Source: Natrinema pallidum DSM 3751 (GTDB lineage: Archaea; Halobacteriota; Halobacteria; Halobacteriales; Natrialbaceae). Taken from it: DNA of 60,372 bases. The translations under genes were made by a program, and so were the position numbers. Positions 14,070 to 31,880 of this stretch are shown here, in pieces; the first letter of the stretch is position 1; the number at the start of each line of letters is the position of its first letter. The notes beneath the pieces are model-generated. The model was not told the origin of the DNA and searched no databases. It saw only the letters and a program-made list of their open reading frames with translations. Where the stretch lies: contig NZ_AOII01000026.1 of NCBI RefSeq assembly GCF_000337615.1, forward strand, positions 1,406 to 61,777, given 5' to 3'.

Positions 14070-15614
14070 CTACTCGCCCGCGGGCCGAATCTTGAATCCG
14101 TAGCGGGTGACGCCTTCCTGCGTGTAGATCCGGCGAATCGTCGTCTCAATCCGCTCACCGACGGAGAAATCGGCGGGGTCGGCATCGGTGCCCATCGCGG
14201 GGACGCTAACGGTCTCGTCGCCGCTATCGACGCCTTCTTCTCGCTGGCGCTGCCCGCTCGAACGGTCCGCGGAGTTTCGCTCCGCGTGATCACCGTCCTT
14301 TCGGTGCGTCTCCGACGCACCGTCCGTCTCGAGCGCGACGATCGCGGCCGCGTAGTCGCCCGACTGGGCCTGCTGTTCGGCGAACTCCGGTGGCGCGCCG
14401 CCCTGGGAGATCGTCGTCACGGCCTCGATCGTCCCCTCGCCCGCGAGTTCGATAGGCTCATAGTCGGCGAGTGCGCCGCAGTCGTCACAGGCACCGTCCG
14501 GCGGGAACGAAAGCGCATCGCACTCCGAACAGCGGCCCGCCTCGAGCCGGTATCGCTGGGGAATCGAGCGCCGCCAGGAAGGGACGCTGACGTAAGCACC
14601 ACCGCCCGATGGCGGCCCCGTAGTCACGATGCCGCGCTGGCGCAGGTACTCGGCGTAGGTGAGCGGGTCGTCACCCTCGAGTGCCGTTACTGCCGGCACG
14701 TCGCCGTCACTTTGGCGTGTCTCCGACGCAACGCTGACGACGACCGCGTCGGCCCCCGCGCCGCTGCCATGGGAGACCGCGAGGATGGACTCGTACCCGT
14801 CCGCGAGTGCGGTCGCCAGCGAGACGGGGACGCTCGCAGCGCCGAGGTCGCCCAGCTCGTGGACCGTCGCGGCGGCTCGAATCTCCTCGGTCCCGACGCC
14901 GGCCGCGCCTGCGGCGCGATAGGGGAGTTTCCCGTCGGGGGCCTGGATCGCAACCGCATCGGGGGTGGGTTCGTCCTCGAGCCCGGCGACGGCACCGCCG
15001 ATCGTCTCGGTGAACGCCCGTCGGTCGTACTGGGTGATGCCGAGCCCCTGCGTCTCGTCCTCGCCGGCGTTGCGGAACCGGGTGCCGGGATACGGCGCGG
15101 AATACTCGGCGCGGTCGACGATCTCCGCGGGGCCCTCGCGCTCGAGGACGAACGCCGCACTGCCGGCCCCGGCGGCGTGATCGATCCCGTCGTCGGGATC
15201 GCCCTGCGGCGCGTCGGCGGCGACGACGAGCGCGGTCGTCGAATCGGCCTCGAGCGCGTCGAGCGCGGCCCACAGCGCCCGCGTTCCGGCGCGCGTACTG
15301 CCGGTGAACGCGTGGCGGGTCGCGGACTCGGAGAGCGTGACCATCGCACCGAGGCGGGCGGTCAGGTCCTCCTCGGCAGTCGGCGGCCGCGAGGAGGCGA
15401 ACGCGAGCCAATCGATTTCGTCGGGGTCGGTCTCGGCCGCCTCGAGCGCGCGGGTCGCGGCCTCGTAGCCCATCGTCAGGGCGTCCTCGTCGGCCGAGGG
15501 GACGGCCTTCTGGGTGACGCCGGCGGCGTGGAACTGGCCCCAGGCGTCCTCGAAGGCCTCGCTGGTGATGCGGAACCGCGGTGCGTACGCGCCGACGCCG
15601 GTGATCGCGGCCAT
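14070..15614 (-). CDS. HMG-CoA synthase-like protein fused to zinc-ribbon/OB-fold (DUF35)
   Basis: The protein is 514 residues. Residues 1-330 form a thiolase-fold half like archaeal 3-hydroxy-3-methylglutaryl-CoA synthase (MAAITGVGAYAPRFRI; DDGIDHAAGAGSAAFVLE; AVSHGSGAGADAVVVS). About residues 335-514 are a DUF35 unit: a zinc ribbon with CSECD and CDDCG, then an OB fold that ends YGFKIRPAGE. In catalytic homologues the acylated Cys lies in an ACKAGT-type motif. Here the matching stretch is GSTRAGT with Thr107 at that position, so it probably cannot form the acyl-enzyme. The OB fold is interrupted by a low-complexity insert (THRKDGDHAERN region). The start overlaps the upstream thiolase stop (TAATG), so it is co-translated. 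It may be a channelling or binding partner of the thiolase. Confidence 0.85.
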   Translation of the reverse strand: MAAITGVGAYAPRFRITSEAFEDAWGQFHAAGVTQKAVPSADEDALTMGYEAATRALEAAETDPDEIDWLAFASSRPPTAEEDLTARLGAMVTLSESATRHAFTGSTRAGTRALWAALDALEADSTTALVVAADAPQGDPDDGIDHAAGAGSAAFVLEREGPAEIVDRAEYSAPYPGTRFRNAGEDETQGLGITQYDRRAFTETIGGAVAGLEDEPTPDAVAIQAPDGKLPYRAAGAAGVGTEEIRAAATVHELGDLGAASVPVSLATALADGYESILAVSHGSGAGADAVVVSVASETRQSDGDVPAVTALEGDDPLTYAEYLRQRGIVTTGPPSGGGAYVSVPSWRRSIPQRYRLEAGRCSECDALSFPPDGACDDCGALADYEPIELAGEGTIEAVTTISQGGAPPEFAEQQAQSGDYAAAIVALETDGASETHRKDGDHAERNSADRSSGQRQREEGVDSGDETVSVPAMGTDADPADFSVGERIETTIRRIYTQEGVTRYGFKIRPAGE

Positions 15615-24749: not shown

Positions 24750-24808
24750 TCCTGGCCCGCCGCCTCTCGAGCGGGGCGTTTTTGCCGCCCGCGCCAGCAG
24801 GGAGGAGT

Positions 24809-26569
24809 ATGCAAGTCCACGTCGTGGGTGACGATCCGGTCCGCGAGGCGGTCGTCACCGCGCTCGATGACGTCGATATCGGTGTCCGCGACGCCGAGCC
24901 GGCAGCGCTCACGGACGCTCGTTTCGCAGTCGTCAGCGATGTCGCCGGTTCGGAGACGTTCGACCGAGCGAACGAGGCCGCCAGCACGGGCGGAACGCCC
25001 TGGATCGCCGTCGAGATCGGCGGTGTCGGAGGGCACCCCATGCCGGGCGTCGACGCCGCGATCACCGGGTTCGCGCCTGCGACGGGGTGTTTCGACTGTC
25101 TGCGCGCCCGCGTCGCGTCGAACGTCGAAGAGCGAGCCGACGTCCCACAGGCCGACCGCAGCGAAGCGCGATTCGCCGGTGCGGTCGCCGGCCGGGAGTG
25201 CGTGCGCGTCCTCTCGGGCGACGAACGATCGATCATGGGACAGGTACTCGAAGTGCCCCACGCCCGACGTCGGCTGCTGCCCGTGCCCGGGTGCGTGTGT
25301 GCTGAGGGCGGCCGTGATCGTTCGCTCGACCGCGATGCCGCGTCGCTCGCCCTCGACGCCGCTGTCGACAGCGCTGAGGGAGCGATCGACGACCGCGTCG
25401 GACCGATCGCCAGTATCGGCGAGATCGAGTCGTTCCCGGCCCCTTACTACCTGTCGACGGTCGCGGACACCGCCGCATACAGCGACGCGAGTGCGCCGCG
25501 ACAGGCGGCCGGCGTCGCGACCGACTGGAACGCAGCACTGATGAAAGCCGTCGGCGAGGGCCTCGAGCGCTACTGCGCTGGCGTCTACCGCGAGGCCGAT
25601 TTCGTCCGCACGAGCGAGACCGCCCTCGAGAACGCGGTCACACCGACTGACTTCGTTCGGCCGGACGACGCGCCGGCCGACGACGGGAGCGACGACCGCC
25701 GTTGGGTTCCGGGCGAGAACCTCGCGACCGGCGAGACCGCGCACCTCCCCGCCGCGGCGGTACAGTTCCCCCAGCCCGGCACGTCGCTGCTCCCGGCGAT
25801 CACGACCGGGCTGGGGCTGGGGTCCTCGACCGTCGATGCGCTGTGTTCGGGGCTGACAGAAGTCATCGAGCGCGACGCGACGATGCTCGCGTGGTACTCG
25901 ACGTTCGACCCGCTCGGACTGTCGGTCGAGACGGACGCCTTCGACGCGCTCGAGCGCCGCGCCCGGAGCGAGGGGCTGTCGGTGACGCCGCTGCTCGTCA
26001 CACAGGACATCGACGTTCCCGTCGTCGCCGTCGCGGTTCACCGCGACCCGGACGCGCTCGAGGGACGCGAGGTCCGAGCCGACGACGACTCCTGGCCGGC
26101 ATTCGCCGTCGGCTCGGCGGCCGGACTCGACGCCGCGGCGGCCGCGGCGTCGGCGCTCGAGGAAGCGCTCCAGAACTGGATGGAACTCCGAAGTCTCGGA
26201 CCGGCGGACGCCGACGATGCCGGCGGGGAGATCGGCGAGTACGCCTCGTTCCCGGCTCGGGTGCGAGCCTTCGTCGATACCGAGCGGACGGTTCCGGCGG
26301 CGAGCGTCGGGCCCGATCCCGTGCCGACCGGCCGCGACCGACTCGAGGCGCTGTGTTCGCGGACGGCCGCCGTCGGACTGACGCCGTACGCCGCTCGGTT
26401 GACGACCCGCGATATCGACGAACTCGGGTTCGAGGCCGTCCGCGTACTGGTGCCGGGCGCACAACCGCTGTTCACCGACGAGCCGTTCTTCGGCGAGCGA
26501 GCGCGGACGGTCCCGACGGAACTCGGCTTCGAACCGCGCCTCGAGCGGGCGTTCCACCCGTATCCCTGA
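24809..26569 (+). CDS. Fused docking-domain/YcaO protein (TOMM cyclodehydratase-like)
   Basis: The protein is 586 residues. About residues 1-190 form an N-terminal part that looks like a ThiF-like docking domain with a zinc-type cysteine set: C94 and C97 (GCFDCLRARV), C162 and C164 (PGCVCAEG). About 200-586 is a YcaO domain with ATP/Mg motifs KAVGEGLERYC and GLTEVIERDATMLAWYSTFD, and a later SALEEALQNWMELRS. The C-terminus ends HPYP, recalling the proline-rich tails of azoline-forming YcaO enzymes. YcaO enzymes activate backbone amides with ATP to form azolines or thioamides. No precursor peptide, dehydrogenase or TfuA partner is seen nearby. The start was taken at the ATG after GGAGGAGT; upstream frame extensions are shadow of the antiporter gene. 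Confidence 0.85.
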   Translation: MQVHVVGDDPVREAVVTALDDVDIGVRDAEPAALTDARFAVVSDVAGSETFDRANEAASTGGTPWIAVEIGGVGGHPMPGVDAAITGFAPATGCFDCLRARVASNVEERADVPQADRSEARFAGAVAGRECVRVLSGDERSIMGQVLEVPHARRRLLPVPGCVCAEGGRDRSLDRDAASLALDAAVDSAEGAIDDRVGPIASIGEIESFPAPYYLSTVADTAAYSDASAPRQAAGVATDWNAALMKAVGEGLERYCAGVYREADFVRTSETALENAVTPTDFVRPDDAPADDGSDDRRWVPGENLATGETAHLPAAAVQFPQPGTSLLPAITTGLGLGSSTVDALCSGLTEVIERDATMLAWYSTFDPLGLSVETDAFDALERRARSEGLSVTPLLVTQDIDVPVVAVAVHRDPDALEGREVRADDDSWPAFAVGSAAGLDAAAAAASALEEALQNWMELRSLGPADADDAGGEIGEYASFPARVRAFVDTERTVPAASVGPDPVPTGRDRLEALCSRTAAVGLTPYAARLTTRDIDELGFEAVRVLVPGAQPLFTDEPFFGERARTVPTELGFEPRLERAFHPYP

Positions 26570-30188: not shown

Positions 30189-30531
30189 GTAAACCGTCCG
30201 GCCCCCCGGGCAAAAAGCGTTGCGAGATATCCGCGGGTGTCAACGGTTGACGACCCCAGCAACGGGTCATGCGGCCCACTGGTGTCGGGACCCGTGGTCG
30301 CGGTCGAGACGGCCGTCGTCCTCGAGCGGTCGGCTTCCTTCCTGAACTTTCGTGTGCGAATGGGACACATTGTGTCTGCCTGGACGCGGGGCAATCTCGG
30401 TTACGAGTGCCCACATCCGAGTCAGACCTGTCCATTTCCGTTCGGATCTGGCCGCCACTGTCGGAACGCTACCGGATCGTGAAATGGAGTCCCACGCAAC
30501 GTTTATTGACAATCCACCCATCTGTCGGAGT
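30189..30531. other. Intergenic region with promoter-like element near its end
   Basis: No recognisable gene is present upstream of guaB on either strand. At its right end GTTTATTGAC (about 30501-30510) resembles a TATA box, placed about 28 nt before an ATG at 30532. Confidence 0.4.
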
Positions 30532-30729
30532 ATGTTCGCTGTGAGTGCAGCCGACGCCCGAACCGCTGGCCGGATGAGTGCCGACTCCGCTGCCACTTTC
30601 GGGAATTTTACACAGAAACTCACAGCTCGAGGCCTTATTCCCACCCCGATCGACTGGCACCCGGACCGATCGGAAGGGGAGTGTCCATCATATCACCCGC
30701 AGGCCTCGGGTCACGGCCATCGACTCTGA
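30532..30729 (+). CDS. Possible small protein, 65 residues
   Basis: This frame starts at an ATG about 28 nt after a TATA-like GTTTATTGAC and ends 3 nt before the next gene's ATG, an arrangement that suggests a real first gene of a short operon. The product shows no recognised domain (it includes NFTQKLTARGLIPTPIDWHP) and its codon use is mixed. The alternative is that this stretch is simply the leader of the DUF5794 gene. Confidence 0.35.
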   Translation: MFAVSAADARTAGRMSADSAATFGNFTQKLTARGLIPTPIDWHPDRSEGECPSYHPQASGHGHRL

Positions 30730-30732
30730 TCG

Positions 30733-31653
30733 ATGAGTACGTCACAACACCCAGTTGCGCTCCAGATGGAGCGCATCATCGGGGGTAACGCCAGGCTCCT
30801 CGCGCTGGTCATGATGCTGCCGCTAGTCGATGGCGTCTTCCCCGCGTTGATCCTGGCCGGGGCGCTCGACCAACCGCTCGACGCGATTCAGGTCGGGCTG
30901 TTGATCTTCGGCGGGAGCGCCACCGTCGCCGTGATCCTCGCGGAGATGGACGGGACGCCCCGGGAGCAGTCGGCGGTCGTCTTGCTCGTCGGCATCCCAC
31001 TGATACTGCTGTCGGCAGTGCAGGCCGCACTCGCGCCGGCGATCGCGAGCGTGATCGATATCGTCATCTTCGAGCGGTTCGCGGCCCTGGTGATCGCCGC
31101 CATCGCGGCCAAAACCGCCAGCGCGACGATCGGCGACTACCTCCCCAACCCCGCGGTCATCATCGGGCTGGGACTGGTCGCGAGTCTCGAGCCCTCCGGG
31201 GCGACGTTCTCGCTGATGACCGAGCCCGCGCTCGTGGCCAACGCGACGCTGTCCGCGGCCGTCGGCGTTGCCTTCGCACTGGCCATCGCGCTGACCGGGC
31301 CGTACCTGCGGGAGTACATGGACATCGACCGGTTCCGCTTCGGGAGCGCCGTCGCGCTCGGCCTGCTCCCGCCGTCCCTGCTCTGGATGGCCTTCGGGCA
31401 GGCCCCGCTGGTCGCCCTGCTCGTCGCTGCCCTGTTCGCCATCGAGTTCCCGTTCCGGGAGTCCGACGACGCCGACTCGAGCCCCGAGCCGGAGGCCGAC
31501 GCGGACGAGACGGTCGCACGGATGGGCGCGGTGACCGACGGCGGCGGTGCAAGCGCCTCGAGCGAGCCGCCGGCCGCGGAGCGCGACGAGGAGCCGAACG
31601 CGTATCCGGGCGACGACGGGACGGACACCGCGGGGCGGGCCCCGTGGCTGTAG
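30733..31653 (+). CDS. DUF5794 family membrane protein
   Basis: This 306-residue protein has about six to seven transmembrane segments in its first 240 residues (LLALVMMLPLVDGVFPALIL, IQVGLLIFGGSATVAVILAE, VLLVGIPLILLSAVQAALA and others). A long acidic, Ser/Pro/Ala-rich cytoplasmic-type tail follows (about 240-306). The opening SQHPVALQMERIIGGNARLL is characteristic of a haloarchaeal family known as DUF5794. The function is unknown. The tRNA-Trp gene starts 52 bp after its stop. Confidence 0.8.
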   Translation: MSTSQHPVALQMERIIGGNARLLALVMMLPLVDGVFPALILAGALDQPLDAIQVGLLIFGGSATVAVILAEMDGTPREQSAVVLLVGIPLILLSAVQAALAPAIASVIDIVIFERFAALVIAAIAAKTASATIGDYLPNPAVIIGLGLVASLEPSGATFSLMTEPALVANATLSAAVGVAFALAIALTGPYLREYMDIDRFRFGSAVALGLLPPSLLWMAFGQAPLVALLVAALFAIEFPFRESDDADSSPEPEADADETVARMGAVTDGGGASASSEPPAAERDEEPNAYPGDDGTDTAGRAPWL

Positions 31654-31705: not shown

Positions 31706-31880
31706 GGGGTCGTGGCCAAGCCAGGCATGGCGGCTGACTCCAGAGGCAACGCGCCCGGGACGACACTCCAGACTGATATACTGATCGGGCACCTGATCAG
31801 TGCTCGTGTGATGACCCTCTGGAGTTCCGAGGCGCACCGGAGATATCAGTAGATCGGGGGTTCAAATCCCTCCGACCCCA
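31706..31880 (+). tRNA. tRNA-Trp (CCA anticodon) with intron
   Basis: The acceptor stem GGGGTCG pairs perfectly with CGACCCC, followed by discriminator A at 31880; no CCA is encoded. The T arm is GGGGG-TTCAAAT-CCCTC. The anticodon stem GCTGA/TCAGT encloses loop CTCCAGA, with CCA as anticodon. The gene is interrupted after the anticodon loop by an intron of about 101 nt (approximately 31745-31845), leaving a mature tRNA of 74 nt. The intron carries a box C-like GTGATGA followed by CCCTCTGGAGT, complementary to the anticodon region, and CTGA-type boxes. This matches the known haloarchaeal tRNA-Trp intron that guides 2'-O-methylation of its own precursor through the nop5/flpA machinery. The exact splice points are approximate. 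Confidence 0.95.

Follow-up and report, generated by a model that had tools for sequence, protein, structure and literature searches.

The 60,372-nucleotide stretch of Natrinema pallidum DSM 3751 DNA analyzed here, which we call the window, encodes a fused E1-like/YcaO protein that we judge, with a probability of about 0.55, to be a single-copy, vertically inherited core heterocyclase-type YcaO that modifies a resident housekeeping protein, as E. coli YcaO does with uL16. The protein has a conserved architecture and a class-wide distribution, and no nearby precursor or RiPP partner that we tested is co-distributed with it; its chemistry and its housekeeping target are probably those named. The haloarchaeal core YcaO is already described rather than a new family, being in print as the "haloazolisin" YcaO (PMC4603692, PMC9953058). 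What is added here is a random-window control, a structural alignment in which the N-terminal part of related enzymes is seen to be missing from the window YcaO, a class-wide count, counts of potential partners, and a contrast with true TOMM clusters.

Architecture and local setting of the window YcaO

The features of the gene are collected in Table 1. Since its product matched PF02624 (4.4e-49, residues 235-551, 168 bits against a curated cut-off of 25.7), its dN/dS values relative to three Natrinema orthologues were 0.16, 0.26, and 0.19, and it has homologues class-wide, we regard ycaO as a real gene. A genome search identified it as the only YcaO of its own genome, with the closest named relative in Natrinema altunense (96%). 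The Na/H exchanger gene upstream ends 59 bases before the ATG, and an inverted gene without assignment, a cupin, CMP kinase, and IMPDH lie downstream. The neighbors scanned within 10 kb were DHH, Hsp20, DJ-1, RNA-binding, TetR, MatE, Na/H exchanger, cupin, CMP kinase, IMPDH, DUF5794, and unassigned proteins, with no nitroreductase or TfuA among them. The first-pass annotation was correct in its coordinates, frame, 586-residue length, cysteine pairs (94/97 and 162/164), and HPYP end, and the 10-kb scan confirmed its statement that no TfuA, dehydrogenase, or Cys/Ser-rich peptide adjoins the gene. Elsewhere in the window, a CRISPR array with CRISPR-DR24 repeats occupies positions 101-1579 at the window start, and an Rfam tRNA match lies at 31706-31880 (+), where ARAGORN reported no tRNA in the window; because the match is 175 bases long, this tRNA gene is probably intron-bearing.

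Table 1. Positions of ycaO and its features in the window.
Feature	Position	Strand	Basis or remark
ycaO, 586-aa fused E1-like/YcaO protein	24809..26569	+	ATG start codon at 24809; stop included
Purine-rich ribosome-binding-like stretch GGGAGGAG	24800..24807	+	Seen directly ahead of the ATG; putative function
E1/ThiF-like domain, codons 1-166	24809..25306	+	AlphaFold2 model, VIA-align to MoeB/ThiF
Zinc-type cysteines C94, C97, C162, C164	25088..25300	+	52/52 each in alignment A2
YcaO domain, codons 235-551, with ATP-site acids E250, E253, E351, E354, plus R355	25511..26461	+	PF02624
C-terminal HPYP (H-P-x-P end)	26555..26566	+	H583, P584, P586 in 52/52

The AlphaFold2 model of the window YcaO (pLDDT 91.6, pTM 0.92) had LynD, MusD, and TruD as its best Foldseek matches. 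LynD, TruD, and MusD (4v1t, 4bs9, and 7u58) share both the E1-like and YcaO domains with it across residues 1-586 (Z 30-36) and likewise end in P-x-P. VIA-align placed model residues 1-586 on LynD 112-775, with residue 1 pairing with LynD 112, MusD 108, and TruD 111, and the model opens with a strand (residues 2-6) that belongs to the E1-like fold; residues 1-166 aligned with MoeB (Z 14.3) and ThiF (Z 14.0). We take the leader-binding part of LynD to lie in its first 111 residues. Because the model starts at the equivalent of LynD residue 112, this leader-binding part is missing, and VIA-align of the model found no counterpart of those 111 residues anywhere in the window YcaO; no co-encoded precursor was found either. 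The "docking domain" previously proposed as a leader-binding part is instead an E1/ThiF-like zinc domain formed by the N-terminal 166 residues. Cox et al. describe the haloarchaeal proteins as truncated at the N-terminus and doubt that they bind a leader (PMC4603692).

The SagD profile TIGR03604 was matched over its whole length (1-377, 214.7 bits) without reaching its curated cut-off of 219.25, and the window YcaO has no adjoining SagB or SagC. NF040716, used to test for the E. coli (uL16) type, gave no match to the protein. The Pro-rich C-terminal end of SagD-type TOMM cyclodehydratases is present in all aligned sequences (52/52), and we take the H-P-x-P motif to be a mark of cyclodehydratases.

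In alignment A2, which comprises the window protein (P0001) and 51 proteins from 80 named loci (n=52), the four cysteines, E250, E253, E351, E354, R355, H583, P584, and P586 were all invariant, and we presume that the four acids and R355 have ATP/Mg-binding roles. The D343 position was variable (D 22, E 22, G 4, H 2, M 1, A 1) and thus acidic in only 44/52 proteins. By alignment it corresponds to E191 of E. coli YcaO, which presumably has a role in the ATP site; this correspondence comes from a weak hhalign alignment to E. coli YcaO (probability 4.9) and is supported by the MJ1094 alignment. The YcaO ATP motifs read from the window's letters are thus present, and only this one acidic position varies across the alignment. 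In a second alignment (A1, 23 rows), one protein (L052, genome G364) had lost all four zinc-type cysteines together and kept its ATP site, as expected if they hold one metal in common, and another (L059) had an altered second pair (CxC).

Several orthologues had unusual forms. The protein encoded at L162 8561-10621 (G139) carries an in-frame low-complexity insertion of ~45 residues within the YcaO domain, and G171 gave split matches of the same kind. The gene of one genome (G081:C1:2694287-2696031, L167) carries a disruption near codon 525 (stop or frameshift), reflecting either a sequencing error or a pseudogene. A deep divergent orthologue (L160 8766-10622, G142, family f5) has CxxC...CxxC and extra Cys motifs and scored 34.4 against the TOMM leader-binding model TIGR03882, just below the cut-off of 36.9.

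Distribution and descent of haloarchaeal ycaO

YcaO was found in 123/125 genomes of the family (111/111 near-complete) and in 388/391 genomes of the class (376/377 near-complete). In the class search, three genomes, all of one family, had no YcaO whatever; tbsP was present without ycaO alongside in two of these and was not found in the third. Among the matches listed in a phylum search of 392 genomes, full-length matches occurred only in Halobacteriales, and those outside this order covered the YcaO part alone at no more than 111 bits. Calling the protein an orphan was therefore apt in that a fused YcaO stands without a visible partner, but not in the rarity the word implies, since this is a class-wide core gene that had already been described. 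The universality of haloarchaeal ycaO was reported previously, in a study that saw no convincing gene cluster (PMC9953058).

In an 89-row tree, Natrialbaceae (48), Haladaptataceae (8), Haloferacaceae (7), Haloarculaceae (6), and Halococcaceae (2) each fell on one side of a branch. The tree comes from a quick method, two of the small families require two changes, and L160, L161, and the D proteins discussed below sit on long branches that make their places unsure. As far as this sequence tree goes, haloarchaeal ycaO follows the families and its inheritance is vertical.

The neighborhood of the gene differs between families. In 28/32 named loci outside Natrialbaceae, tbsP lies upstream on the same strand, with a gap of <200 bases in 25/28; glyA is near ycaO in 28/32 of these loci and folD in 21/32. 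None of the three is near ycaO in the 48 Natrialbaceae loci, some of which have short flanks. In the window's own genome, the folD-glyA-tbsP block is on a different contig from ycaO, indicating that ycaO has moved. We recognized no peptide-modification gene travelling with this block. The published neighbors of the haloazolisin YcaO, namely SHMT, folD, and an unknown gene upstream, correspond to the glyA-folD-tbsP block, and the window protein agrees, when compared by description, with the account of Cox et al. (2015) in being haloarchaeal, fused, and equipped with a divergent, shortened C domain. Natrialbaceae, including the window, differ in having ycaO outside the published block (0/48 loci within).

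Precursors, partners, and true TOMM clusters

An alternative that we consider unlikely is that the protein acts as cyclodehydratase in the synthesis of a secreted RiPP (haloazolisin), with the precursor gene located elsewhere, leader binding left to another protein, and a dehydrogenase perhaps encoded at a distance. The cyclodehydratase-type fold and HPxP end would suit this role, heterocycloanthracin precursors are reported to be encoded far from their enzymes, and Cox et al. assigned 31 precursors (PMC4603692). The published haloazolisin rule selects ORFs of <150 aa whose C-terminal half is 65% or more C/S/T, and we applied it to the 68/80 loci with full 10-kb flanks and to 20 random windows drawn from two Natrinema genomes only. 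Such ORFs were not enriched, with 12 in 68 loci (0.18 per 20 kb) compared to 4 in 20 random windows (0.20); at a 45% threshold, the values were 12.1 near ycaO and 11.6 in random windows. Since these ORFs are no commoner near ycaO than at random, the rule finds chance frames of GC-rich DNA, although precursors that are distant or low in C/S/T escape it and the genuine precursors of the L165 cluster described below score only 0.40 each. Because Ser/Thr-rich "precursors" arise by chance in GC-rich haloarchaeal DNA, mining by composition can overcall RiPPs there.

Conserved short intergenic ORFs of 44 Natrialbaceae loci were no better candidates: in the best 25 clusters, C/S/T made up no more than 38% of the C-terminal half. 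The most widespread of these clusters adjoin IMPDH/DUF5794, and one is a reading of the tRNA gene, whose reverse strand at 31706-31880 carries a widespread spurious ORF (NPRSTDISG). At about 30267-30745, upstream of the DUF5794 gene, short intergenic ORFs on both strands are similar in 21-32/44 Natrialbaceae loci; this stretch may be conserved non-coding or regulatory DNA.

The window's own genome does hold candidate partners away from ycaO, namely two SagB-like proteins on one contig (C113) and a single PqqD-type protein (L172 9671-10018), promisingly placed beside folD, glyA, and tbsP, which form the ancestral neighborhood of ycaO. Against the near-universal ycaO, however, PqqD-type proteins were found in only 38/145 class genomes and SagB-type dehydrogenases in 37/145, and a relative of the genome's own PqqD occurred in 0/80 named loci, so we rejected both as partners. 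The PqqD-type protein also adjoins a 666-aa protein that we take to be an OPT transporter. TIGR03693 (F protein) gave no match, with the control genomes silent as well. The formation of azoles, which the first reading of the sequence gave as the usual activity of YcaO enzymes with a fused docking domain, is putative here, and no dehydrogenase is co-distributed with ycaO.

Where relatives do carry TOMM clusters, these come with B, C, and D genes and precursors of their own, which also speaks against a secreted product of the universal enzyme. A genome of the window's genus (G069) has a complete split cluster (L165 6073-12009) with SagB (139.6 bits), a C protein over the TIGR03882 cut-off, a D protein, and an S9 peptidase, together with two precursors whose core is CCVCSSSSSGGSGG, also given as SIPSSCCVCSSSSSGGSGG; a second D-like protein lies at 14141-15400. 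Judged by its sequence, this cluster is a good candidate for a haloarchaeal azole peptide. In family f4, C-like, stand-alone D, and SagB-type proteins are encoded at L157 8225-11627 and L156 8248-11349, the former with a small peptide of 72 aa that has a CCS core and ends in YDSPACCSAAGNSDVTVLDP. By eye, both clusters are near an IMPDH-like gene, as is the window ycaO, and L156 is also near a DUF5794-like gene. True TOMM clusters of relatives thus do not resemble the universal YcaO and are diverging more quickly. Between G065 and G069, the D proteins share 31% identity, in contrast with 77% for the universal YcaO of those two genomes, which suggests that the universal gene is closer in behavior to an enzyme whose substrate is stable. 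The same argument has been made for uL16 YcaOs (PMC13063428).

In H. mediterranei, a ycaO knockout was described as viable with unchanged cell counts, and its antagonism was also unchanged, which fits poorly with a secreted RiPP; FTIR differences, lipid bands among them, were reported for the same strain (PMC9953058).

Function of the haloarchaeal YcaO

The preferred reading, modification of a resident protein, has a precedent in E. coli YcaO, which thioamidates uL16 without a precursor or TfuA; uL16 and McrA are the two established protein substrates of YcaO enzymes (PMC13063428). The window YcaO resembles E. coli YcaO in its YcaO kinase core, its chromosomal residence, and the absence of a precursor nearby; it is also acidic (pI 4.3), as is the E. 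coli protein, a trait that is uninformative in a haloarchaeon. The two are 16-17% identical (VIA-align, Z 22-23). E. coli YcaO has a C-terminal TPR half, whereas the window YcaO ends with the YcaO core and has an E1-like domain.

These comparisons also raise the possibility, to which we give little weight, that the enzyme forms a thioamide, as happens on McrA and uL16, from sulfide or with a ThiS-type carrier. MJ1094 (6pe3, 6peu) has a similar YcaO domain (Z 37 over 349-354 residues) and headed the VIA-align rows (Z 37.5; residues 178-573), but it lacks the E1-like domain. MJ1094-type methanogen YcaOs pair with TfuA in some methanogens, and TfuA (PF07812) gave no match in the window's own genome, with the M. 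acetivorans control positive. The TIGR03266 profile (McrA thioamidation) did match the window YcaO, at 62.9 bits and thus far below its cut-off of 365; McrA itself is, to our knowledge, absent from haloarchaea. E. coli YcaO dispenses with TfuA, yet the E. coli-type second half is missing here, as alignments to 4q84-4q86 stop at chain residue 394-397 (4q84: 397), and heterocyclases also possess the HPxP end and the E1-like domain. The cyclodehydratase-type C-terminus, the closest full-length folds, and the lack of TfuA together lead us to favor an azoline over a thioamide.

Under the preferred reading, the zinc-holding E1-like domain probably presents the substrate in place of a leader-binding domain. 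With ATP and Mg, a backbone amide of a resident conserved protein would be phosphorylated, and attack by the side chain of a neighboring Cys, Ser, or Thr would next yield an azoline; alternatively, sulfide would be taken up to yield a thioamide. The earlier guess of a distant or housekeeping target gains support as a possibility from these results. The viable knockout, the three YcaO-less genomes of one family, and the failure to find a substrate count against a housekeeping role; no substrate is named in the literature we found on haloarchaeal YcaO or haloazolisin. Moreover, the median identity across 12 non-Natrialbaceae loci (66 pairs each) was 55.6% for ycaO, 76.6% for glyA, 75.2% for folD, and 62.7% for tbsP, and the lower conservation of ycaO makes a static substrate fit less well.

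It is very improbable that the enzyme has turned to a non-peptide or regulatory function, such as one in one-carbon or lipid metabolism, since the ancestral neighbors glyA, folD, and the regulator tbsP that might suggest it are lost from the neighborhood in Natrialbaceae, the lipid-band differences of the knockout are indirect, and the ATP-site residues are invariant apart from the one variable acid.

Taken together, a class-wide YcaO that has neither a leader-binding domain nor a co-distributed partner makes a strong candidate for a third protein-substrate system. We tentatively suggest, at lower confidence than the housekeeping reading itself, that it may follow McrA and uL16 as a leaderless heterocyclase that installs an azoline (or a thioamide) in a conserved resident protein. 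We know of no other azoline in a housekeeping protein, so that this would be the first. With a knockout strain available and an in-silico substrate screen in print, the question of its substrate is directly testable.
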